Assembly: GCF_011682235.2 (NCBI RefSeq)
Contig: NZ_CP076718.1
Coordinates: 3,143,868-3,207,867, forward strand
Length of the DNA stretch: 64,000 nt
From: Rhodocaloribacter litoris
GTDB lineage: Bacteria; Bacteroidota; Rhodothermia; Rhodothermales; ISCAR-4553
Reading direction: 5' to 3'
Shown: positions 24,137 through 33,337 of the stretch, piece after piece
How positions within the stretch are numbered: position 1 is the first letter of the stretch
Layout of the letters: the number at the start of each line of letters is the position of its first letter
Program-made: the position numbers and the translations under genes
Notes under the pieces: model-generated
What the model saw: the letters and a program-made list of their open reading frames with translations, nothing else
What the model was told of the DNA's origin: nothing
Database searches by the model: none

Positions 24137-25441
24137 TCATGCCGGCTCCAGCCAGTCCCGGTGGGCCTCGAGGCGCCGGCGGAGGAGGTCCGGGCGGCCC
24201 CGGCCGGGGAAGCCGTCCACCCGGTAGGCGGCCAGGGCGTCTGCGGCGTCCGGCGCGGCCCGCGTCCCGACGGCCTGTGCGGCCTTGCGGTAGGCCTCGC
24301 GGAACGGCACGCCGTCGCGGACCAGTTCCAGGGCGTGGGCTGTGGCATACAGCTCGGGTGTGCAGGCTTCAGCCAGCCGCTCGCGGTCGAAACGGAGTCC
24401 GGGCACGACGTGGTTCATCGCCGCGAGCAGGTCGCCGGCCAGCAGGGTGCACCGCATGACGGCCTCTTTGGTCAGCTGGAGGTCGCGGTGGTAGCCCGAG
24501 GGCAGGTTGGCCGGGAGCGTGAGCAGCACGTTCATCTCGGCCAGCAGGCGGTGGTACGTGGCCCGCGCCAGCTCCAGCACGTCGGGGTTCTGCTTCTGCG
24601 GCATGATGCTGCTGCCGGTGCAGTATTCGGCCGGAAGCTCCACGAAGCCGAACTCGGCGCTGTTGAAAAGCACTAGGTCGGACGCCATCCGGTTGAGCGT
24701 GGCGCCCACCTGCACGAGCGCGTGCGCCACGTGCAGTTCCAGCTTGCCGCGCGAGAGCTGGACGGCCGTCACGTGGGTCTGCACGCCGTCGAAGCCCAGC
24801 CGGCGGGCGACCTCCTCACGGGGCAGCTCGAGGTAGGGCACGCCGTACCCGGCGGCGCTCCCCAGCGGCGAGACGTTGACCTGCCCTGCCGCGTGGCGGA
24901 GCGCGTCGAGGTCGGCCAGGAGGCATTCGGCATAGCCCAGCGCCCACTGCCCGGCCGTGGTGGGCATGGCCCGCTGGAGGTGGGTGTAGCCCGGCATCAG
25001 GGCGTCGTCGTAGGCGTCGCCCAGGCGGCAGAGGGCCTCGGCGAGGGCGTGCACCTGCCGGCCCCGCGCCCGGAGTTGCTCGCGGAGAAAGAGACGGAGG
25101 GCGGTCAGCACCTGGTCGTTCCGGGAGCGCCCCGTATGGATCTTCTTACCCACCTCGCCCAGGTGTTCGGTCAGGTACGTCTCGATCACGGTGTGGCAAT
25201 CCTCGTCCGCCGGTGTGACGGTGACGTGGCCGGCTTCGTAGTCTGCGAGAAGCTGCCCCAGGGCGTCTTCGATCCGGGCAAACTCCTCGGCGGAGAGGAG
25301 GCCGATCTGCGCCAGCCCCCAGGCGTGGGCCCGTGTCCCTTCGATGTCGTAGGGCAGCAGAAGCGTATCCCAGCGATAGTCTTCCCCCACGGTGAACCGC
25401 GTCACCCAGTCCTCGACGCGCGTGTCTTTCTGCCAGAGCAT
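24137..25441 (-). CDS. argH: Argininosuccinate lyase
   Basis: 434 residues. Splits argininosuccinate to arginine and fumarate, the last step of the pathway. The signature GSSIMPQKQNPDVLELAR near residue 270 carries the flexible catalytic loop, with TGRSRNDQVLTALRLFLRE near 108 and TAGQWALGYAE near 160. The start ATG at 25441 is 8 bp after the argE stop. It is the last gene of the minus-strand arginine operon. An upstream open frame extends to 26191 but overlaps argE and is not coding. Confidence 0.94.
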   Translation of the reverse strand: MLWQKDTRVEDWVTRFTVGEDYRWDTLLLPYDIEGTRAHAWGLAQIGLLSAEEFARIEDALGQLLADYEAGHVTVTPADEDCHTVIETYLTEHLGEVGKKIHTGRSRNDQVLTALRLFLREQLRARGRQVHALAEALCRLGDAYDDALMPGYTHLQRAMPTTAGQWALGYAECLLADLDALRHAAGQVNVSPLGSAAGYGVPYLELPREEVARRLGFDGVQTHVTAVQLSRGKLELHVAHALVQVGATLNRMASDLVLFNSAEFGFVELPAEYCTGSSIMPQKQNPDVLELARATYHRLLAEMNVLLTLPANLPSGYHRDLQLTKEAVMRCTLLAGDLLAAMNHVVPGLRFDRERLAEACTPELYATAHALELVRDGVPFREAYRKAAQAVGTRAAPDAADALAAYRVDGFPGRGRPDLLRRRLEAHRDWLEPA

Positions 25442-25449
25442 GGGCCTGT

Positions 25450-26526
25450 TCAGGTTGATGCTTCGTGCGTGGAAAAATAGGCCCGGATGATGCGTTTGTA
25501 CACCGCCACGGCCTGCTCGACCTCGGCGACGGCGATGTGCTCGTCGGCGGTGTGGGAGAGGGGGCTCTCGCCGGGCCCGATCTTGACGGTGGGCACGTCG
25601 GCCAGGAAGATCCAGTCGGAGGCCGTGGGTGAGCCGAAGGGCTCGGCCTCGGGGAGCGCGGTGCGGCAGGCCCGCACGATGCGGGCGTCGGGCGACGTGG
25701 CGACGGGGATGAGGCGCTTGCTGTAGACCTCCACGTCGGACTCGACGTGCCGGGCGATGTATTCGGTCAGTTCCTTGTGCGTGTAGGCGGGCGTGGAGCG
25801 GATGTCGAGCGTGAGGGTGCACCGGTCCGGGATGACGTTGTTCTTCGTCCCGCCCTCGATCATGGTGACGTTGACGGTGGGGGGGCCGAGGAACGGGTCG
25901 GCGCGGTCGAACGTGAGGCGCTGGAGGGCGAGCACGTCGCGGGCGGCGCGGACGATGGCGTTGTCGCCCAGGTGGGCGCGGGCGGCGTGGGCGCTCCGTC
26001 CACGGGCGTGGAGCTTCAGGATGAGCAGCCCCTTCTGGGCCACGCAGGGCCGCAGGCCGGTGGGCTCGCCGACGAGGGCGGCGGAGAGTGGCGGCAGGTG
26101 GGGGCGCAGGTCCTGCAGGCCGTTGTAGCCGCCCCCGCCTTCCTCGCAGGCCGTCAGCGCCAGCAGGAGGCGGCCGTTCCGGGGCTGCCACCCCTCGTGC
26201 GCCAGGTCGAGGAGCGCCGTCATCATGGCCGCGCCGCTGGCTTTGGCATCCACGGCACCGCGTCCGTAGAGCCGGCCGTCCACCTCGGTAGGGGTGAAGG
26301 GGTCGTAGGGATGGTCTTCGGAGGGGGGCACGACGTCCAGGTGGGAGTTGAGCAGGAGCGTGTCCGGCCCTTCGCCCAGCCAGGCGTAGACGTTGTTGGC
26401 GTGGCGCCCCACGTGCACCCCGGCGGCCCGCAGCCGGGCCTCCACGAAGTCGGCGATCGGGCCTTCTTCGAGGCTGAGCGAGGGGAAGCGGATCAGGTCC
26501 TTCAGGAGGGCGACGGCGTCGGACAT
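25450..26526 (-). CDS. argE: M20 family acyl-ornithine/acyl-citrulline deacylase
   Basis: 358-residue M20 zinc peptidase fold. Metal and catalytic motifs: LLNSHLDVVPPS (first His and Asp) near 66, YGRGAVDAKASG with the bridging Asp near 95, TACEEGGGG with the catalytic and ligand Glu near 125, and a final His in ESPLSHTADEH. Next to an acyl-ornithine transcarbamylase, its likely substrate is N-acyl-citrulline rather than N-acetylornithine; this follows from pathway logic, not from a residue I can point to. It starts 4 bp after the argB stop. Confidence 0.85.
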   Translation of the reverse strand: MSDAVALLKDLIRFPSLSLEEGPIADFVEARLRAAGVHVGRHANNVYAWLGEGPDTLLLNSHLDVVPPSEDHPYDPFTPTEVDGRLYGRGAVDAKASGAAMMTALLDLAHEGWQPRNGRLLLALTACEEGGGGYNGLQDLRPHLPPLSAALVGEPTGLRPCVAQKGLLILKLHARGRSAHAARAHLGDNAIVRAARDVLALQRLTFDRADPFLGPPTVNVTMIEGGTKNNVIPDRCTLTLDIRSTPAYTHKELTEYIARHVESDVEVYSKRLIPVATSPDARIVRACRTALPEAEPFGSPTASDWIFLADVPTVKIGPGESPLSHTADEHIAVAEVEQAVAVYKRIIRAYFSTHEAST

Positions 26527-26530
26527 GGCT

Positions 26531-27343
26531 TCACGGGAGGATGCGCGTGGCGCGGCGGCGTTCGAGCAGGTCGTCCGGCGCGAGGACATACACGTCGGGG
26601 ATGCCGGCCCGGAGGGCTTCGAAGGCGACGGCGAGCTTGACGCGCATGCCGCCCTGGATCCACCCGTCGGCCACGCCCCGCTCGAACGTGGCGGCGTCGC
26701 ACCGGTCGAGGAGGGAAGCCGGATCGGACGGGGTGCGACGGAGGCCGCCGGCTTCGGTCACCAGGAGGAAGGCGGCGGCCCCGAGGGCGGTGGCCAGGTG
26801 CCGGGCCACGGTGTCGGCATTGACGTTGTACACCTGCCCGGCTGCGTCGATGCCGAGCGGCGCGATCACCGGGACGAAGCCGCCGGCCAGCAGGGCCGCG
26901 ACGATGCCGGGGCGCACGGCCTCTACGTCGCCCACCCAGCCGAAGTCCACCGTCTCGCCGTCGACCTGCCAGGGGGGGCGGCGGACGACGCGGACCAGCC
27001 CGCCGTCGGCGCCGGAGAGGCCGGCGGCCGGCACCCCGTGGCGGTGCGCCTGGGCCACCAGGTGGGTGTTCAACTCACCCCGCAGGGTCCACCGGATGAT
27101 GTCGAGGTCGAGGTCGGACGTCACGCGGCGTCCGTGGACGATGCGGGGCTCGTGCCCCAGTCGCCGCGCCATGGCTGTGGCCTGCGGCCCGCCGCCGTGT
27201 ACCAGCACCACCGGCGTCGTCTCACGCAGCCGTGCCACGGCCGCCCACAGCGGATCGAGCCGCTCCGGCTCGGCCACGAGCGCCCCGCCCACCTTGACGA
27301 CGACGGGCCGGGCGGCCTCCCTTCCATGGGGGTTCAACGACAT
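26531..27343 (-). CDS. argB: N-acetylglutamate kinase
   Basis: 270 residues, amino-acid kinase fold. The N-terminal VVVKVGGALVAE and VLVHGGGPQATAMA hold the nucleotide and acyl-glutamate contacts; VIAPLGIDAAGQVYNVNADT near 165 and the WIQGGMRVKL segment near 230 are conserved. It phosphorylates N-acylglutamate, second step of the pathway, and is often arginine-inhibited in organisms with the cyclic route. Given the transcarbamylase present, the acyl group could be acetyl or succinyl. Start ATG at 27343 is 20 bp after the argF' stop. Confidence 0.92.
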   Translation of the reverse strand: MSLNPHGREAARPVVVKVGGALVAEPERLDPLWAAVARLRETTPVVLVHGGGPQATAMARRLGHEPRIVHGRRVTSDLDLDIIRWTLRGELNTHLVAQAHRHGVPAAGLSGADGGLVRVVRRPPWQVDGETVDFGWVGDVEAVRPGIVAALLAGGFVPVIAPLGIDAAGQVYNVNADTVARHLATALGAAAFLLVTEAGGLRRTPSDPASLLDRCDAATFERGVADGWIQGGMRVKLAVAFEALRAGIPDVYVLAPDDLLERRRATRILP

Positions 27344-27363
27344 GGTTGATGGCCGGGAATGGT

Positions 27364-28413
27364 TCAGTCCAGGACGAAGGCGGGGCCGAAGACCTCCAAC
27401 CGGGGATGCGGGAGCCCCCACAGGTGTTCGAGGATGGCTTTCTGGGCGTGCAGGCGGAACTCGGCCTGGAGCAGGTGGATCGCCTGCGGCCCGTCGAGGA
27501 CGGCGTCGTCCACCACCACCCCGCGCCGGACGGGCAGGCAGTGCATGAAGACCCCGTCGCGGGTGCGGGCCATCCGTTCGGCCGTCACGCGCCAGCCCCG
27601 GTGCGACGCGCGCAGGGCCGCCTCGGCGTCGGGGTCCGTGTACCGAAGCCGCCCGCCCCAGGCTTTGGCGTAGATCACCTCGGCCCCGTCGTAGGCCGCG
27701 TCCGGGTCGTCCGTCTCCTCCACGGCCGTGCCGTGGGCGGCCGCATACGCCCGCGCCGTTTCCATGACGCCCTCATCCAGCTCGAACCCCGCGGGACGGG
27801 CTACGGTGACGTGCATCCCCAGCCGGGCCGCCGCCAGCAGGGCCGAGTTCGGGACGGCCATGGGCAGCGCCTTCGGGTGATACGCCCAGGTCAGCACGAA
27901 CCGCCGGCCCCGGACGTCGCCGTCGAAGCGGGTGGCGAGGGTGGCGGCGTCGGCCAGGGCCTGGCAGGGGTGGTAGAAGGCGGACTCCAGGTTGACCACG
28001 GGCACGCCGGCATGGCGGGCGAAGGTGTGCAGCAGGGCGTCGGTGCGGTCCTGCTCATAGTCGGTGCCGGAGGCGAAGAGGCGCACGCCGAGGGCGTCGT
28101 AGTACCGCGACAGCACCCCCACGGCCTCGCGGATGTGCTCGGCCTCGTCGCCGTCCATCACCCCCTCGCCCCAGGCAAAGCCCCACGTGCCGGAGCCTGG
28201 CGTGATCGTCGTGGCGTGGGCGCCGAGTTGCACGGCCGCCAGCTCCATCGACGTGCGCGTGCGGAGCGAAGGATTGAAGAAAATCAGCGCAATGCTCTTG
28301 CCGCGGGCGGCCTCCGTCCACGTCTTCCCGGCCCGGTAGTGGGCCACGGCGGCCGTCAGGCACCGCCTCCATGTCGCGTCATCGAGCAAATGCCAGTCGA
28401 GCAGGTGGGGCAT
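27364..28413 (-). CDS. N-acyl-ornithine transcarbamylase (AOTCase/SOTCase type, ArgF')
   Basis: 349 residues. Carbamoyl-phosphate motif is FFNPSLRTRTS near residue 45 and the ornithine-side motif is MHCLPVRRG near 290. The segments TWAYHPKALPMAVPNSAL and IYAKAWGG, and the GVMDGDEAEHIREA loop near 84-97, match N-acetyl- or N-succinylornithine transcarbamylases rather than ordinary ArgF. In this loop the specificity position (Glu92 in the Xanthomonas acetyl enzyme, Pro90 in the Bacteroides succinyl enzyme, from memory) is Ala91. This implies acylated citrulline as an intermediate, with ArgE acting after it. Preceded by a heptamer-repeat spacer of 107 bp after argD. Confidence 0.85.
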   Translation of the reverse strand: MPHLLDWHLLDDATWRRCLTAAVAHYRAGKTWTEAARGKSIALIFFNPSLRTRTSMELAAVQLGAHATTITPGSGTWGFAWGEGVMDGDEAEHIREAVGVLSRYYDALGVRLFASGTDYEQDRTDALLHTFARHAGVPVVNLESAFYHPCQALADAATLATRFDGDVRGRRFVLTWAYHPKALPMAVPNSALLAAARLGMHVTVARPAGFELDEGVMETARAYAAAHGTAVEETDDPDAAYDGAEVIYAKAWGGRLRYTDPDAEAALRASHRGWRVTAERMARTRDGVFMHCLPVRRGVVVDDAVLDGPQAIHLLQAEFRLHAQKAILEHLWGLPHPRLEVFGPAFVLD

Positions 28414-28438
28414 GCGGTTCTAGGGTTTACGGGTTTCG

Positions 28439-28473
28439 CGTTGAACGTTGGACGTTGAACGTTGGACGTTGGA
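28439..28473. repeat. Tandem heptamer repeat (CGTTGRA)x5 inside the arg operon
   Basis: Five contiguous heptamers, alternating CGTTGAA and CGTTGGA, between argD and argF'. A related run occurs at 53393-53420 between ettA and intI. The same type of short tandem is seen in intergenic DNA of other Bacteroidota-like genomes. It is the only sizeable gap within the operon (107 bp). Confidence 0.7.
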
Positions 28474-28520
28474 CTACTCCCGCATCGTCGTGTATAGTTC
28501 ATGATGAGCGGAACCAATCC

Positions 28521-29705
28521 TCAGGCGCCGGGAACGGCCTCATCCTGGTAGACCGCGAGGAACGTTTCGATGAACGTGTCGAGGGCGTCGTCCGGGGTGT
28601 TGAGGGGGGGCATGAGACGGAGGACGTTCGGATCGTCGGCGCCGCCGGCCAGGATGCCGGCTTCGCGGAGGCGGGCGATGACGGGACGGGCGGGGCCGTC
28701 GAGGACGAGGCCGAGGAGGCAGCCCCGCCCGCGCACCGCCCGCACGTGCGGCGCCAGGGCCGTGGCGAGGCGTGCGTGGATTGCCTCGGCCCGGGCCATG
28801 AGGGCCTCGTCCCGGATCGTCTCCAGCGTGGCCGTCACCGCCGCCATAGCCAGCATCCCCCCGCCGAAGGTCGTCCCCTGGTCGCCGGGCTTCACGGTGG
28901 CGGCGATGGCGTCGGCGACGAGCACCGCCCCGACGGGCACGCCCGAGCCGAGGCTCTTCGCCAGCGTGATCAGGTCGGGCCGCACGCCGAGCTGCTCGGC
29001 GATGGAGAACGTGCCGGTGCGCCCCACGCCGGTCTGCACCTCGTCGAAGATCAGGGCCACGCCGTGCCGGTCGCACAGCCGCCGGAGTTCCTCGAAGTAG
29101 GCCGGTGGCGCCTCGGTGACGCCGGCCATGCTCTGGATGGGCTCCAGGATGACCGCGCCGATGTCGTTCCGCCCGGCCAGCACGCGGGCCACGGCGTCGG
29201 CGTCGCCGAAGGGGACGAACGTCGTCTCGGGAAGCACGGCGGCGTAGGGCTCCCGGTACTTCGGGTTCCACGTCACGGCCAGGCTGCCGAGCGTGCGCCC
29301 GTGGAAGCCGCCCTCGGTGGCGATCACGCCGGGTTTGCCCGTCCACGTGCGGGCGAGTTTCAGGGCCGTCTCGTTGGCCTCGGTGCCCGAGTTGCAGAAG
29401 AAGACGTGGCGCAACCCTTCCGGCGCCATCGAGGCCAGGAGCGCCGCCGCCCGCGCCCGGACGGGGCTATAGACCACGTTCGAGTAGAACATCAGCGTGG
29501 CCGCCTGCGCCTGCACGGCCTCGACGACGCGCGGCGGGCAATGGCCGAGCAGGGTAACGCAGTGCCCGCCGTAGAAATCGAGGTAGCGGTTTCCGTCCGT
29601 GTCCCACACGTAGATCCCCTCGCCACGCTCGAGCGCGATGGGGTACTTGGCATACGTGGGGATCTGGAACGAGTCTTCGAGGCGGAGGATGTCCGGGGTG
29701 TTCAT
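28521..29705 (-). CDS. argD: Acetylornithine (acyl-ornithine) aminotransferase
   Basis: 394 residues, class III PLP aminotransferase. FFCNSGTEANETALKLAR near residue 100, GGFHGRTLGSLAVT near 130, the cofactor-binding Asp in LIFDEVQTGVGRTG near 220, and the PLP lysine in LAKSLGSGVPVGA near 248 are all present. Transfers the amino group from glutamate to N-acylglutamate semialdehyde. Its ATG (29705) overlaps the argC stop by 4 bp (ATGA), so translation is probably coupled. Confidence 0.92.
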   Translation of the reverse strand: MNTPDILRLEDSFQIPTYAKYPIALERGEGIYVWDTDGNRYLDFYGGHCVTLLGHCPPRVVEAVQAQAATLMFYSNVVYSPVRARAAALLASMAPEGLRHVFFCNSGTEANETALKLARTWTGKPGVIATEGGFHGRTLGSLAVTWNPKYREPYAAVLPETTFVPFGDADAVARVLAGRNDIGAVILEPIQSMAGVTEAPPAYFEELRRLCDRHGVALIFDEVQTGVGRTGTFSIAEQLGVRPDLITLAKSLGSGVPVGAVLVADAIAATVKPGDQGTTFGGGMLAMAAVTATLETIRDEALMARAEAIHARLATALAPHVRAVRGRGCLLGLVLDGPARPVIARLREAGILAGGADDPNVLRLMPPLNTPDDALDTFIETFLAVYQDEAVPGA

Positions 29706-30769
29706 GGGGTGATGGCGGGGTTGGATACCGGAGTGGGGAGGAGGCCGGCCGTCTCGGGCAGGCCCAGGACGAGGTTCATGTTCTGGACGGCCTGGCTGGC
29801 CGCCCCTTTGAGGAGGTTGTCCAGGGCGAAGCCCACGACGAGGTGGCCGTCGCGGAGGGTCCAGCCGAGGTCGCAGAAGGGCGTGCCCACGGCGTACCGC
29901 AGTTCGGGGAGGGTGCCGGGCCAGCAGCGCACCGCCGGGGCGGCGGCATAGGCGTCTTCGTACCAGGTGGCGATGTCGGCTTCGGTGAGGCCGCCCGGCA
30001 GCGCGATGTGGGCCGTCCCCCAGATGCCGCGCGTCCAGGGGCCGGAGACGGGCACGAAGGCCACGTGGGCGTTCGGTCCCAGCGTCTGGAGCACCTCGGG
30101 CAGGTGCTGGTGGGCGAGCACCTTGTAGGCCCGCACGTTCCCGTCGCGGGTGGGGAAGTGGGTGGTGGAAGAGGGACGGGTGCCCGAGCCGGAAGCGCCC
30201 GTCAGGGCCGTCACGGCGGCGTCGAGGCGGGGCAGATGGCGGGCGAGCGGCCAGAGCGCCAGCGCCAGCCCCGTGGCGAAGCAGCCGGGGTTGGCGATGT
30301 ACGGCGTGGCGTACGGGGCGTGGACCTCCGGCAGCCCGTAGGCAAAGTCGGAGAGCCGTTCGGGTGCCGGGTGGCTGAAGCCGAACCACCGGTCGTAGAC
30401 GTCCGGGTCGCGGAAGCGGAAGTCGGCGCTCAGGTCCACGATGGCGCCTGCGTAGCCGGCCTCGAGCAGGCTGGCCACGGCCCGCGCTCCCTGCCCGTGC
30501 TCGGCCGCGATGAAGACGACGTCGAGCGTGTCGAGCGGCAGGTCGTCGCCGTCGGAGAAGGCCAGGTCGGTCTGGCCGCGCAGGGCCGGGTGGGCCGTCC
30601 AGACGGGCTGCCCGGCAAAGGTGCGGCTGGTGACGACCTCGAGCGTGACGTGTGGGTGTGCGGTGAGCAGGCGGATCAGCTCGCCGCCCGCGTAGCCGGC
30701 GCCGTGGAGGAGGGCCACCCGGGCCGGTGGCCGGTCGGTCGAGGTTTCGCGGAACGGTGGGTTGGTCAT
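29702..30769 (-). CDS. argC: N-acetyl-gamma-glutamyl-phosphate reductase
   Basis: 355 residues. Rossmann motif VALLHGAGYAGGELIRLL near residue 18 and the catalytic cysteine in YIANPGCFATG near 150. SGASGSGTRPS-like ALTGASGSGTRPSSTTHF and the His of AHQHLPEV follow as expected. It reduces N-acylglutamyl phosphate with NADPH. It overlaps the upstream P-loop gene by 4 bp and argD by 4 bp, showing tight coupling of three genes. Confidence 0.92.
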   Translation of the reverse strand: MTNPPFRETSTDRPPARVALLHGAGYAGGELIRLLTAHPHVTLEVVTSRTFAGQPVWTAHPALRGQTDLAFSDGDDLPLDTLDVVFIAAEHGQGARAVASLLEAGYAGAIVDLSADFRFRDPDVYDRWFGFSHPAPERLSDFAYGLPEVHAPYATPYIANPGCFATGLALALWPLARHLPRLDAAVTALTGASGSGTRPSSTTHFPTRDGNVRAYKVLAHQHLPEVLQTLGPNAHVAFVPVSGPWTRGIWGTAHIALPGGLTEADIATWYEDAYAAAPAVRCWPGTLPELRYAVGTPFCDLGWTLRDGHLVVGFALDNLLKGAASQAVQNMNLVLGLPETAGLLPTPVSNPAITP

Positions 30770-31875
30770 AGGGCGACTCCGGCAAGGGCGTAGGGGACGG
30801 TGGAGAGCGAAGCGCCGGCCACGGCGCGGGCGACCGTCTCGACGAGCGCCCCGGTGTCCTGCAGGGCGTTGTGCGCCGGGATGCCGAGCGCGTTTTGAAT
30901 ATACTGCTTGCCGACGGCGTTGTCCGTCACCGGGCCGACGATGGCCGTGATCGGGGCGCGGTAGCGGTCGCGGAAGAGGTGGTCGGCGGCCCAGGCCCCG
31001 GCCAGGTCGGTGGCGGCGACCACGTGGGCCCGCGTGAAGCGCTGCAACTCCTTGTCCAGCAGCAGGTCGTCGACGCCATAGTAGCCGATGAAGCCGTCGC
31101 CCAGTTCGAGGACGATCACGTCCGGGACGGCTTCGTTCAGGTGGGCGATGATGCCCTTGGCGAAGGGGGCCATGTCCTTGTTCGTCGAGGCCACCACGCC
31201 GGCGTCGTTGAACGTGGCGCAGGCCACGGCGCCGCTTTCCTGCATCATCCGCACGTCACGGCGGAGGGAGGCCCCGGTGAGCTTGGCGGCCGCCACGCGC
31301 CAGCCCCGTTCCGTCAGCCCCCGCACGATGTGCGCGGCGGCGTGCGTCTTGCCGGTGTTCATCGCCGTGCCGCTGACCATCACGAGCGGGGCCGAGTGGG
31401 AGAGCGTAAAGGCGGGTTCGAGCGCGTAGTCCTGGATGCGGGCGTGGGCCCGGGTATCGTCCAGCTCGACGAGCGCGGCGCCGAGCACCTCCACGCGCAG
31501 CGCCGGCCCCAGGTCGGGGTGGTCGGAGGTGCACAGCCCGATGATGCCGCCCATGTTGAGCAGGTGGAGCACGTCGCCGGGGGCGATGCGGCGGGGGATG
31601 CGGCCGCTGTATCCCTTCAGGGCCTGCCGCTCGCCCAGCGTGCCGACGAACACCATGTCTTTTCGGACGGTGTGGAACGTGCCGTCGGCGGCTTCGAGCT
31701 GGTTGTAGCCCTGTTTGTCTTCGAGCGCCCGCACCACCACACAGTACCCCTCCTCGGCGACGAGGTAGGGGGCGACGGCGACGGGGTTGGTGAGCGGGCA
31801 CCGGCCGGTGCTGGAGGCGATGAGGTCGACCGGCCGGCGATGCCGGCCGTTGGAGGCAAGGATGGAAAGGGGCAT
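30766..31875 (-). CDS. P-loop protein of unknown function embedded in the arginine operon
   Basis: 369 residues. About 150 N-terminal residues form a beta-rich region (GDVLHLLNMGGIIGLCTSD), then a P-loop domain with Walker A SGTAMNTGKTHAAA near residue 177, in the style of dethiobiotin synthetase/MobB/DUF1611 proteins, and VIVLELGDGFIGYYGVDDLL as a probable Walker B region. The gene starts 2 bp after the argG stop and overlaps argC by 4 bp, so it is an integral operon member. No argA or argJ is present, so a link to acyl-glutamate supply or to regulation is possible but purely speculative. Confidence 0.7.
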   Translation of the reverse strand: MPLSILASNGRHRRPVDLIASSTGRCPLTNPVAVAPYLVAEEGYCVVVRALEDKQGYNQLEAADGTFHTVRKDMVFVGTLGERQALKGYSGRIPRRIAPGDVLHLLNMGGIIGLCTSDHPDLGPALRVEVLGAALVELDDTRAHARIQDYALEPAFTLSHSAPLVMVSGTAMNTGKTHAAAHIVRGLTERGWRVAAAKLTGASLRRDVRMMQESGAVACATFNDAGVVASTNKDMAPFAKGIIAHLNEAVPDVIVLELGDGFIGYYGVDDLLLDKELQRFTRAHVVAATDLAGAWAADHLFRDRYRAPITAIVGPVTDNAVGKQYIQNALGIPAHNALQDTGALVETVARAVAGASLSTVPYALAGVAL

Positions 31876-31877
31876 CG

Positions 31878-33101
31878 CTACGTGTCTTTCTGGGTGGGGG
31901 TGGAGACGGCGCCCTGACGGGCCCGGTGGGCGAGGTAGGCCTGCAGGCCGTAGATCCGTGTGAAGCCGCGGGCGTCGCGGGCGTCCCAGAGCTGGTTCGT
32001 CTCGCCGTAGGTGGCCACGCCCGCGTCGAACATGGAGTGGGGGCTGTCGCAGCCGAGGACGCTCACCTGCCCCTTGTGCAGGCGCACCCGCACGGTGCCG
32101 GTGACGACCTCCTGCGAGGCGTCGAGGAACGCCTCGATGTCCCGCATGACGGGGTCGAAGTATTGCGCGCCGTGGAGCATCATCCCGTAGAAGTCGGCCA
32201 GGTGGTTCTTCTGGAACTGCTGCCACTGGGTCAGCACGATCTTCTCCAGCTCCCGGTGGGCGGTGATGAGGATGAGGGGGGCCGGGGCTTCGAAGGCCAC
32301 CCGCCCCTTGATGCCCAGGATGGTGTCGCCCACGTGGATGCCGCGCCCGACGCCGTGCCGGGCACCCAGGTCGTTGAGCGTCTCGATGAGCGTCACCGGG
32401 TCGAGCGTGCCCCCGTCGAGGGCCACGGGCAGGCCCTTCTCGAACGCGATCGTCAGGTCGAGCGGCGCGTCCGGCGCCTCGGCCGGGGCGACGGTGTCCG
32501 GGTAGGCCGCCTCGGGCAGCGGGTCGTGCGTGGTGAGCGTCTCGCGCCCGCCGATGGTGGTGCCCCAGAGGCCCTTGTTGATCGAGTACGTCGCCTTCTC
32601 GGCCGAGGCATGGAAGCCCCGCTCGGTCAGGTAGGCGGCCGTCTCGGGGCGGCTCAGCCCCAGGTCGCGGATGGGGGTGAGGATCTCGAGGTCGCCGCCG
32701 AGGATGCGCAGGGCCACGTCGAAGCGGACCTGGTCGTTGCCGGCGCCGGTGGAGCCGTGCGCCACGGCCCGGGCGCCGAGCTGGCGGGCGGCCTCCGCCA
32801 CGTGCCGGGCCTGCACCACCCGCTCGGGTCCCACGCACAGCGGGTAGACGCCGCCGCGCAGCACGTTGCCCTTGATGAGGTAGCTCAGGAGGTCGTCGTA
32901 GAGGTCGCGCCGGGCGTCGAGGGTCAGGTGCTTCGCCGCGCCGAGCTCGAGCGCCTTCGCCTCGAGTGCCGCCGCCTCCTCGGCCGTGAGGCCGCCGGTG
33001 TTCACGGTGACGGTGTACACCGGCTCGCCGTAGGTCTCGGCCAGGTAGGGGACGCAGAAGGACGTGTCGAGCCCGCCGCTGAAGGCCAGTACGATGGACA
33101 T
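31878..33101 (-). CDS. argG: Argininosuccinate synthase
   Basis: 407 residues. Ligates citrulline and aspartate with ATP. The N-terminal PP-loop LAFSGGLDTS starts at residue 5; the citrulline/aspartate-binding segment HGSTGAGNDQVRF is near 117, ATYSINKGLWGTTIGG near 172, and GRGIHVGDTILGIKGRVAFE near 260. The start at 33101 gives the standard MSIVLAFSGG. The same frame is open upstream to 33203 through the attenuator; I reject that extension because no family member starts that way. First enzyme gene of the operon, 32 bp after the leader terminator. Confidence 0.95.
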   Translation of the reverse strand: MSIVLAFSGGLDTSFCVPYLAETYGEPVYTVTVNTGGLTAEEAAALEAKALELGAAKHLTLDARRDLYDDLLSYLIKGNVLRGGVYPLCVGPERVVQARHVAEAARQLGARAVAHGSTGAGNDQVRFDVALRILGGDLEILTPIRDLGLSRPETAAYLTERGFHASAEKATYSINKGLWGTTIGGRETLTTHDPLPEAAYPDTVAPAEAPDAPLDLTIAFEKGLPVALDGGTLDPVTLIETLNDLGARHGVGRGIHVGDTILGIKGRVAFEAPAPLILITAHRELEKIVLTQWQQFQKNHLADFYGMMLHGAQYFDPVMRDIEAFLDASQEVVTGTVRVRLHKGQVSVLGCDSPHSMFDAGVATYGETNQLWDARDARGFTRIYGLQAYLAHRARQGAVSTPTQKDT

Positions 33102-33132: not shown

Positions 33133-33164
33133 AAAAAAAAACGCCGATTCCGGAGGAACCAGCG
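33133..33164 (-). terminator. Intrinsic terminator in the argG leader (attenuator stem 3:4)
   Basis: Minus strand: CGCTGGTTCC, loop TCC, GGAATCGGCG, a 10-bp stem with two G-T pairs, then nine consecutive T (33141-33133). It sits between the leader peptide stop (33190) and the argG start (33101), so it can only end transcripts heading into the arg operon. Confidence 0.75.
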
Positions 33165-33268
33165 CTTCGCCGAGGGCAAGACGTACGATCTATCGCCTGT
33201 CACGTACCCCGAACCAGCACGCTTTCCTCCGACGCGGCGGCTTCACGCGTCGCGTACGTCGAGAAAAG
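33146..33268 (-). promoter_or_regulatory. Alternative RNA structures of an arginine attenuator (segments 1, 2, 3)
   Basis: Three pairings can be drawn by eye. Segment 1 (33268-33261, CTTTTCTC) pairs over 8 positions with segment 2 (33229-33222, GAGGAAAG, one G-U). Segment 2, extended (33231-33220, CGGAGGAAAGCG), pairs with the 5' arm of the terminator (33164-33151): 4 bp AGCG/CGCT, a two-base bulge, then 8 bp CGGAGGAA/TTCCTCCG. The latter would destroy the terminator. Segment 1 lies just before arginine codons 13, 14, 16 and 17 of the leader peptide, so a ribosome waiting there would cover it and free segment 2. Confidence 0.65.
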
Positions 33269-33297
33269 AGGGCGATATCGGGATGGCTCGTTGTCAT
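33190..33297 (-). CDS. Arginine-rich leader peptide of the arg operon (35 aa)
   Basis: Too short for routine gene calling. The translation is MTTSHPDIALFSRRTRR continuing VKPPRRRKACWFGVRDRR, then TAG. Ten of 35 residues are Arg, in clusters at 13-17 (RRTRR), 22-24 (RRR) and 32-35, using several Arg codons (CGA, CGT, CGC, CGG, AGG). It ends 26 nt before the intrinsic terminator upstream of argG. A promoter-like TTGACA-18-TATCAT ends 10 nt before the ATG, so the message would be nearly leaderless, which fits the lack of a ribosome-binding site. Function inferred: a translation sensor for charged tRNA-Arg. Confidence 0.65.
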   Translation of the reverse strand: MTTSHPDIALFSRRTRRVKPPRRRKACWFGVRDRR

Positions 33298-33307
33298 GAC
33301 GGCGCGA

Positions 33308-33337
33308 ATGATACGGGGCTTTAAGCGCCCCTGTCAA
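33308..33337 (-). promoter_or_regulatory. Promoter of the arginine operon
   Basis: On the minus strand TTGACA (33337-33332), an 18-nt spacer and TATCAT (33313-33308). The -35 box is a perfect match and the -10 differs at one or two places. The spacer contains the inverted repeat GGGGC...GCCCC. Predicted start of transcription is about 33301, 2-6 nt from the leader-peptide ATG. Confidence 0.6.

Follow-up and report, generated by a model that had tools for sequence, protein, structure and literature searches.

Organization of the region upstream of argG in Rhodocaloribacter litoris

The window (the whole stretch of DNA that was analysed, 64,000 nucleotides of the Rhodocaloribacter litoris genome) carries an operon for arginine biosynthesis on its minus strand. 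The first gene of the operon is argG (31878..33101), which starts with an ATG at 33101, and the remaining genes occupy positions 24137..31881; these are a P-loop protein placed as gene 2 between argG and argC (30766-31881), argC (30769-29702), an argD-like aminotransferase (29690-28521), an N-acetylornithine carbamoyltransferase (28413-27364), argB (27421-26531), an argE/dapE-like gene (26589-25450), and argH, the last gene, which ends at 24137. The P-loop protein gave only weak matches (DUF1611, E = 1e-4).

An earlier note on this DNA had claimed that argG is preceded by a promoter, a 35-codon frame with ten Arg codons and a terminator with a run of nine T residues, and each of these elements, as well as argG, was located on the minus strand at the positions proposed. 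The promoter (33308..33337) is formed by the − 35 box TTGACA (33337-33332), an 18-nt spacer and the − 10 box TATCAT (33313-33308); 11 of the 12 consensus bases are present, and shuffles of the region contain on average 0.1 such sites. The gap between the − 10 box and the ATG (33297) of the leader peptide ORF MTTSHPDIALFSRRTRRVKPPRRRKACWFGVRDRR (33190..33297) is 10 nt. This ORF comprises 35 codons, ten of them for Arg, and ends with a TAG at 33192-33190. Codons 13-17 (CGA CGT ACG CGA CGC; 33247..33261) form the first Arg cluster, which is the predicted stall site; all five had been taken for Arg codons, and this is true of codons 13, 14, 16 and 17 but not of codon 15, which encodes Thr. The second Arg cluster, codons 22-24 (CGT CGG AGG; 33226..33234), overlaps the start of segment 2. 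The intrinsic terminator (33133..33168) consists of the 3:4 hairpin (33168-33138), with a folding energy of -18.2 kcal/mol, and the T9 run (33141-33133), which the hairpin overlaps.

The pairing segments lie on the same strand. Segment 1 GCCCTCTTTTCTC (33261..33273) is the best ungapped partner of segment 2 TCGGAGGAAAGCGTGCT (33216..33232), which is common to the 1:2 hairpin and the 2:3 antiterminator, and segment 3 AGCGCTGGTTCCTCCGG (33150..33166), which includes the 5’ arm and the loop of the terminator, pairs with segment 2 in the antiterminator. The three pairings proposed previously are therefore present, and their best ungapped versions overlap the coordinates given at that time. The 1:2 hairpin is seen in the unconstrained fold of the window leader. 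In single-genome tests against synonymous shuffles, the 2:3 pairing of the window was better than the shuffled sequences (p = 0.007), whereas 1:2 was not significant (p = 0.53); hence, the case rests on comparative data.

The Arg leader is conserved in the order Rhodothermales

The regions upstream of argG were compared in 88 genomes of the order Rhodothermales, in which argG was found in 14 families. In 67 of these genomes, which represent 13 of the 14 families, argG is preceded by an Arg-dense short ORF and then an intrinsic terminator. The element is also carried by two genomes from a second order of the class (MVQVSSHMTALRRSRRGKVPRWVNGRRMGWAPS and MAKHTAHIARVRRSRRGGAPRRVNGRCVARKAV), in whose leaders the 2:3 pairings span 15 positions. 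An intrinsic terminator is located behind each of the 66 distinct leaders that were scored. Of 87 upstream regions, 54 contain an ATG-initiated ORF with at least five Arg per ten codons, versus 3.6% of the dinucleotide shuffles, and 29 of the 87 combine an Arg-rich ATG ORF with a good promoter nearby, versus 0.2% of the shuffles; given these rates, chance is excluded as the explanation of the conserved layout.

Among the 88 argG regions, those without the Arg leader belong to family f15, to one genus of f5 and to a few individual genomes. The members of f15 (e.g. L023, L026, L028, L126-L128) have argG but neither the Arg leader nor the repressor ArgR, so that types of control other than the attenuator may act on the arg genes in parts of the class. 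In the genus of f5 that has no Arg leader (g23; L010 and L116), a PadR-like frame seemingly adjoins argG on its upstream side, as judged by eye. No convincing Arg leader with a terminator was detected at 77 argG loci from other groups, including Balneolaceae. An internal TGA in some of the argG matches was discarded as an effect of alignments that overrun the real stop, which was so in both cases checked.

Co-evolution of the alternative pairings

Given that shuffle tests on single genomes have low power (among 66 leaders, p < 0.05 was obtained with synonymous shuffles for 2:3 in 15 and for 1:2 in 10), family-level swap tests with reversed controls were added. The pairing of segments 2 and 3 was scored within and between families using 29 lineages and 2000 permutations. 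The native sum of 2:3 complementarity was 661 and the swapped value 543 ± 18, and none of the 2000 permutations reached the native sum; when segment 3 was reversed, native and swapped values were about the same (p = 0.13). For the 1:2 pairing the signal was weaker than for 2:3, with a native value of 523 versus 474 ± 16 after swapping (p = 0.001), and a p of 0.23 in the control with reversed sequence. A compensatory case is provided by L134, which pairs UAUGCGGAU with AUCCGUAUG, and L130, which pairs CAUACGGAA with UUCCGUAUG: the last pair is altered on both sides, and the 3’ arm of the terminator changes too. These comparisons indicate that segments 2 and 3, as well as segments 1 and 2, have co-evolved. 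Relatives were expected to retain the Arg codons and to keep all three pairings through compensatory changes, and this was borne out in 13 families and in a second order.

Reading frame and codon choice of the leaders

Of the codons in the leader frame 22% are for Arg, versus 10-11% in the two alternative frames, the motif CGACG appears 123 times in frame versus 9 times out of frame (132 in total), and an in-frame CGA-CGN codon pair is present in 66 of 67 leaders; all these figures are somewhat favoured by the fact that the leaders were picked by Arg density. The in-frame bias, together with the conservation of the frame, indicates that the leader is a translated sequence. The choice of Arg codons also differs between the leaders and argG: CGA accounts for 44% of the leader Arg codons (223/503) versus 7% of those of argG (82/1102), and CGG for 5% versus 29%. 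RNA-structure constraints could contribute to the codon bias of the leaders.

In the R. litoris genome the only tRNA-Arg genes found were ACG, CCG and CCT. According to the decoding rules, one inosine-bearing tRNA reads CGA, CGT and CGC; with this set of genes, the three codons should therefore all depend on a single inosine-bearing tRNA. CGG is decoded by a different tRNA, and its avoidance in the leaders is consistent with a sensor that responds specifically to the single isoacceptor tRNA-Arg(ICG).

These data bear on two other ways in which the leader could act. The Arg-rich nascent peptide might by itself arrest the ribosome, or respond in the exit tunnel to free arginine or to a different ligand, as in the speFL/TnaC type of leader. 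Basic nascent chains can slow translation, and the speF gene of Salmonella has a leader with Arg codons and alternative folds (PMC6386406); nonetheless, we consider this explanation improbable, given that the peptides show little similarity between families outside the Arg cluster, that the position and the spacing of this cluster differ among leaders, and that the strong choice of CGA points to decoding and not to the chemistry of the peptide. Somewhat less probable still is that a repressor or an activator binds the repeated CGACG as a DNA operator, the reading frame being incidental. The repeats are strongly conserved at the nucleotide level, and another regulator might exist given that ArgR is absent, but 123 of the 132 copies of the motif are in frame, the motif lies downstream of the promoter within an intact ORF, and an operator leaves unexplained the terminator and the co-evolving 1:2 and 2:3 pairings.

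Effect of the ribosome position on the predicted folding

The stalling of a ribosome that decodes the Arg codons, which is the reading we favour, was modelled in 55 leaders by folding the RNA up to the terminator loop with the ribosome footprint masked. The probability that the 5’ arm of the terminator is engaged in the antiterminator was 0.71 with the ribosome on the Arg codons, 0.58 with no ribosome and 0.56 when it had reached the stop codon, and in 44 of the 55 leaders the antiterminator was favoured by a ribosome on the Arg cluster and not by one at the stop codon. The gain of the Arg position over no ribosome was 0.123 for the real leaders, and at most 0.024 in 12 of 12 sets of synonymous shuffles. 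In the window, the fold yields 1:2 when the ribosome is absent or at the stop codon, and 2:3 when it is at codon 13, 14 or 17; a ribosome placed at codon 16 or 22 gives a best fold other than the simple 2:3 helix, and the equilibrium changes little (0.65 when no ribosome is present, 0.65-0.76 with the ribosome on the Arg clusters). The stalled-ribosome logic put forward in the earlier note thus holds in the constrained folding model, both for the window and across genomes. A ribosome that has reached the stop codon would cover little of segment 2, and for this reason termination must rely on the re-formation of 1:2.

If the terminator were unregulated and the leader ORF only set the basal expression, there would be no purpose in the selection that acts on the complementarity of 2:3 and of 1:2 and on the CGA-CGN codons, which makes this proposal very improbable. 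The least credible explanation is a ligand-binding riboswitch or a T-box with an accidental ORF, since, even though T-boxes control arginine genes in some Firmicutes (PMC1262725) and alternative terminator and antiterminator folds exist here, no Rfam family, and hence no T-box or amino-acid riboswitch, matched the window at the gathering thresholds, there is no aptamer-like conserved core beyond the Arg codons, the segments and the terminator, and conservation extends to the ORF and its frame.

Position of the promoter relative to the leader ATG

A good promoter match was found for 46 of 65 leaders versus 4.6% of the shuffles, and in 36 of these 46 leaders the − 10 box ends 6-10 nt ahead of the ATG, so that transcription is expected to start within a few bases of this codon. 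For the window leader, the ATG is expected at the transcript start or no more than about 4 nt from it, and judging from the promoter sequence the sensor peptide should be leaderless, as the earlier note had suggested; the position of the promoter agrees with this in most of the relatives. Leaderless attenuator peptides have been mapped in Actinobacteria and rhizobia (PMC8079986, PMC7298713), and therefore this trait in itself is not new.

The trp leaders of Rhodothermales likewise begin close behind the − 10 box (e.g. MINPAAHTNGSWWWHHASRGPVRM, 6 nt). Leader ORFs with a run of Trp codons (e.g. MQRTPVHTSPDARLWWWSPAQAVGRTGRYVP) were observed near trpE in L202, L193, L196, L197 and L204, and also in L192 and L200; L202 belongs to the R. 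litoris genome itself, upstream of trpE at G000:C1:520589. In several genomes these ORFs are 6-8 nt from the − 10 box and, where scored, a T run follows 44-67 nt past the stop codon. From their sequences, leaderless trp attenuators seem to be general in Rhodothermales. A search for leaders with runs of His codons close to hisG, and with runs of Leu or Ile/Val codons close to leuA, gave none.

Distribution of ArgR

In descriptions of bacterial arginine biosynthesis, control is usually assigned to the repressor ArgR, or to T-boxes in some Firmicutes. A search with the ArgR profile (PF01316) gave no match in 112 of 114 Rhodothermales genomes, and a genuine ArgR was found in only one (G036), being missing from the other 113. 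The five PF01316 matches in the R. litoris genome were rejected as ArgR since they correspond to a single repeated transposase-like ORF, whose equal-scoring copies are located at G000:C1:1038804, 1710955, 1964970, 2268027 and 2452640; this ORF encodes a short HTH with matches to transposase HTH families as well, and a DDE-transposase-like frame comes after it (L174). A transposase-like HTH can thus exceed the PF01316 cut-off and imitate ArgR in automatic annotation. Given that the profile search gave no genuine ArgR in its genome, the operon of the window does not fit an ArgR regulon.

In G036, argR is located immediately upstream of argG (G036:C181:2467-2619, L173), the Arg leader is absent, and argG is only 51% identical to that of the window; a transfer of the regulator plus the gene, or contamination, is possible. 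In the rest of the phylum sample, ArgR matches were found in 92 genomes, not counting that of R. litoris. Neither of the two Balneolaceae argG regions read has a leader, and Balneolaceae genomes are not among the ArgR matches listed. Tentatively, ArgR may have been lost before the attenuator originated.

Discussion

We conclude that the arg operon of R. litoris is very probably controlled by an arginine-specific transcription attenuator of the ribosome-mediated type. RNA polymerase would start at the leader ATG or a few bases from it, and the ribosome would translate an essentially leaderless mRNA. When arginyl-tRNA is ample, the ribosome would pass the Arg cluster, 1:2 and 3:4 would form, and transcription would stop at the T run ahead of argG. 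Under a shortage of arginyl-tRNA, in particular of the one tRNA-Arg(ICG) expected to read CGA, CGT and CGC, the ribosome would stall on CGA-CGN and cover segment 1; segment 2 would then pair with segment 3, the terminator would not form, and argG-X-argCDF'BEH would be transcribed. A broader proposal, for and against which we see the balance as about even, is that in this ArgR-less lineage an arginine attenuator runs the whole arg operon by means of a leaderless sensor peptide, in which the almost invariant codon pair CGA-CGN, decoded solely by tRNA-Arg(ICG) through the weak inosine-adenine pair, acts as a dedicated starvation sensor.

The logic of the attenuator itself is already known, given that it works like the trp and his attenuators. 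As in trpL and hisL of Escherichia coli, a leader ORF rich in codons for the end product, the mutually exclusive pairings 1:2, 2:3 and 3:4, and an intrinsic terminator precede a biosynthetic operon. In contrast with this type of attenuator, described for Trp, His, Leu, Thr, Phe and Ile-Val, the amino acid is arginine and the lineage is a different one; in addition, the peptides are longer (median 33-34 codons) and essentially leaderless by prediction, and segment 2 pairs with the loop of the terminator as well as with its 5’ arm. The trpL1 and leuL leaders of Streptomyces lividans and trpL of Sinorhizobium meliloti resemble the Arg leaders in that the ORF is at the 5’ end of the transcript (PMC8079986, PMC7298713), but they concern other amino acids and lineages, and the leaderless state of the Arg leaders is predicted from promoters.

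Regarding arginine, the closest likeness is orf34 of Salmonella speF, in which a ribosome pause at consecutive Arg codons switches the RNA structure and low arginine increases expression (PMC6386406). Unlike the system proposed here, its target is an ornithine decarboxylase, the control involves Rho, access to the RBS and RNase G, a Shine-Dalgarno sequence is present, two Arg codons suffice whether rare or frequent, and there is no intrinsic-terminator switch ahead of arg biosynthesis genes (PMC6386406). In rbfL of Staphylococcus aureus, Arg codons of a leader peptide also sense arginine limitation; however, the outcome is translational repression, in which the RBS of a biofilm regulator is blocked, and the codons are AGA/AGG (PMC13009471). 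The carA gene of Pseudomonas aeruginosa, which serves arginine and pyrimidine synthesis, is preceded by a short peptide too, but for this peptide a possible attenuation by pyrimidines is reported, with an effect of arginine at the level of transcription (PMC4997734).

In the open literature, to which the search was confined, Arg-codon leader peptides were found only for Salmonella speF and S. aureus rbf; since both represent other mechanisms and targets, no precedent for arg biosynthesis was found there. A survey of Actinobacteria saw no RNA elements for arginine, arginine is unmentioned in the main text of a broad terminator survey, and it is not among the amino acids given in the openly available comparative surveys of classic attenuators. 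The available part of a flavobacterial transcriptome study contains clues to leader peptides before amino-acid operons and does not name arginine. The arginine specificity and the lineage of the attenuator thus appear to be undescribed in the open literature, and an earlier description may exist in a subscription paper.

If arginine is sensed by a trp-like switch in a group devoid of ArgR, one control logic stands in for another. Such a switch would also extend the list of amino acids known to be sensed by attenuators, and would offer a clean natural system in which to study the codons and isoacceptors that are selected in evolution to sense starvation.
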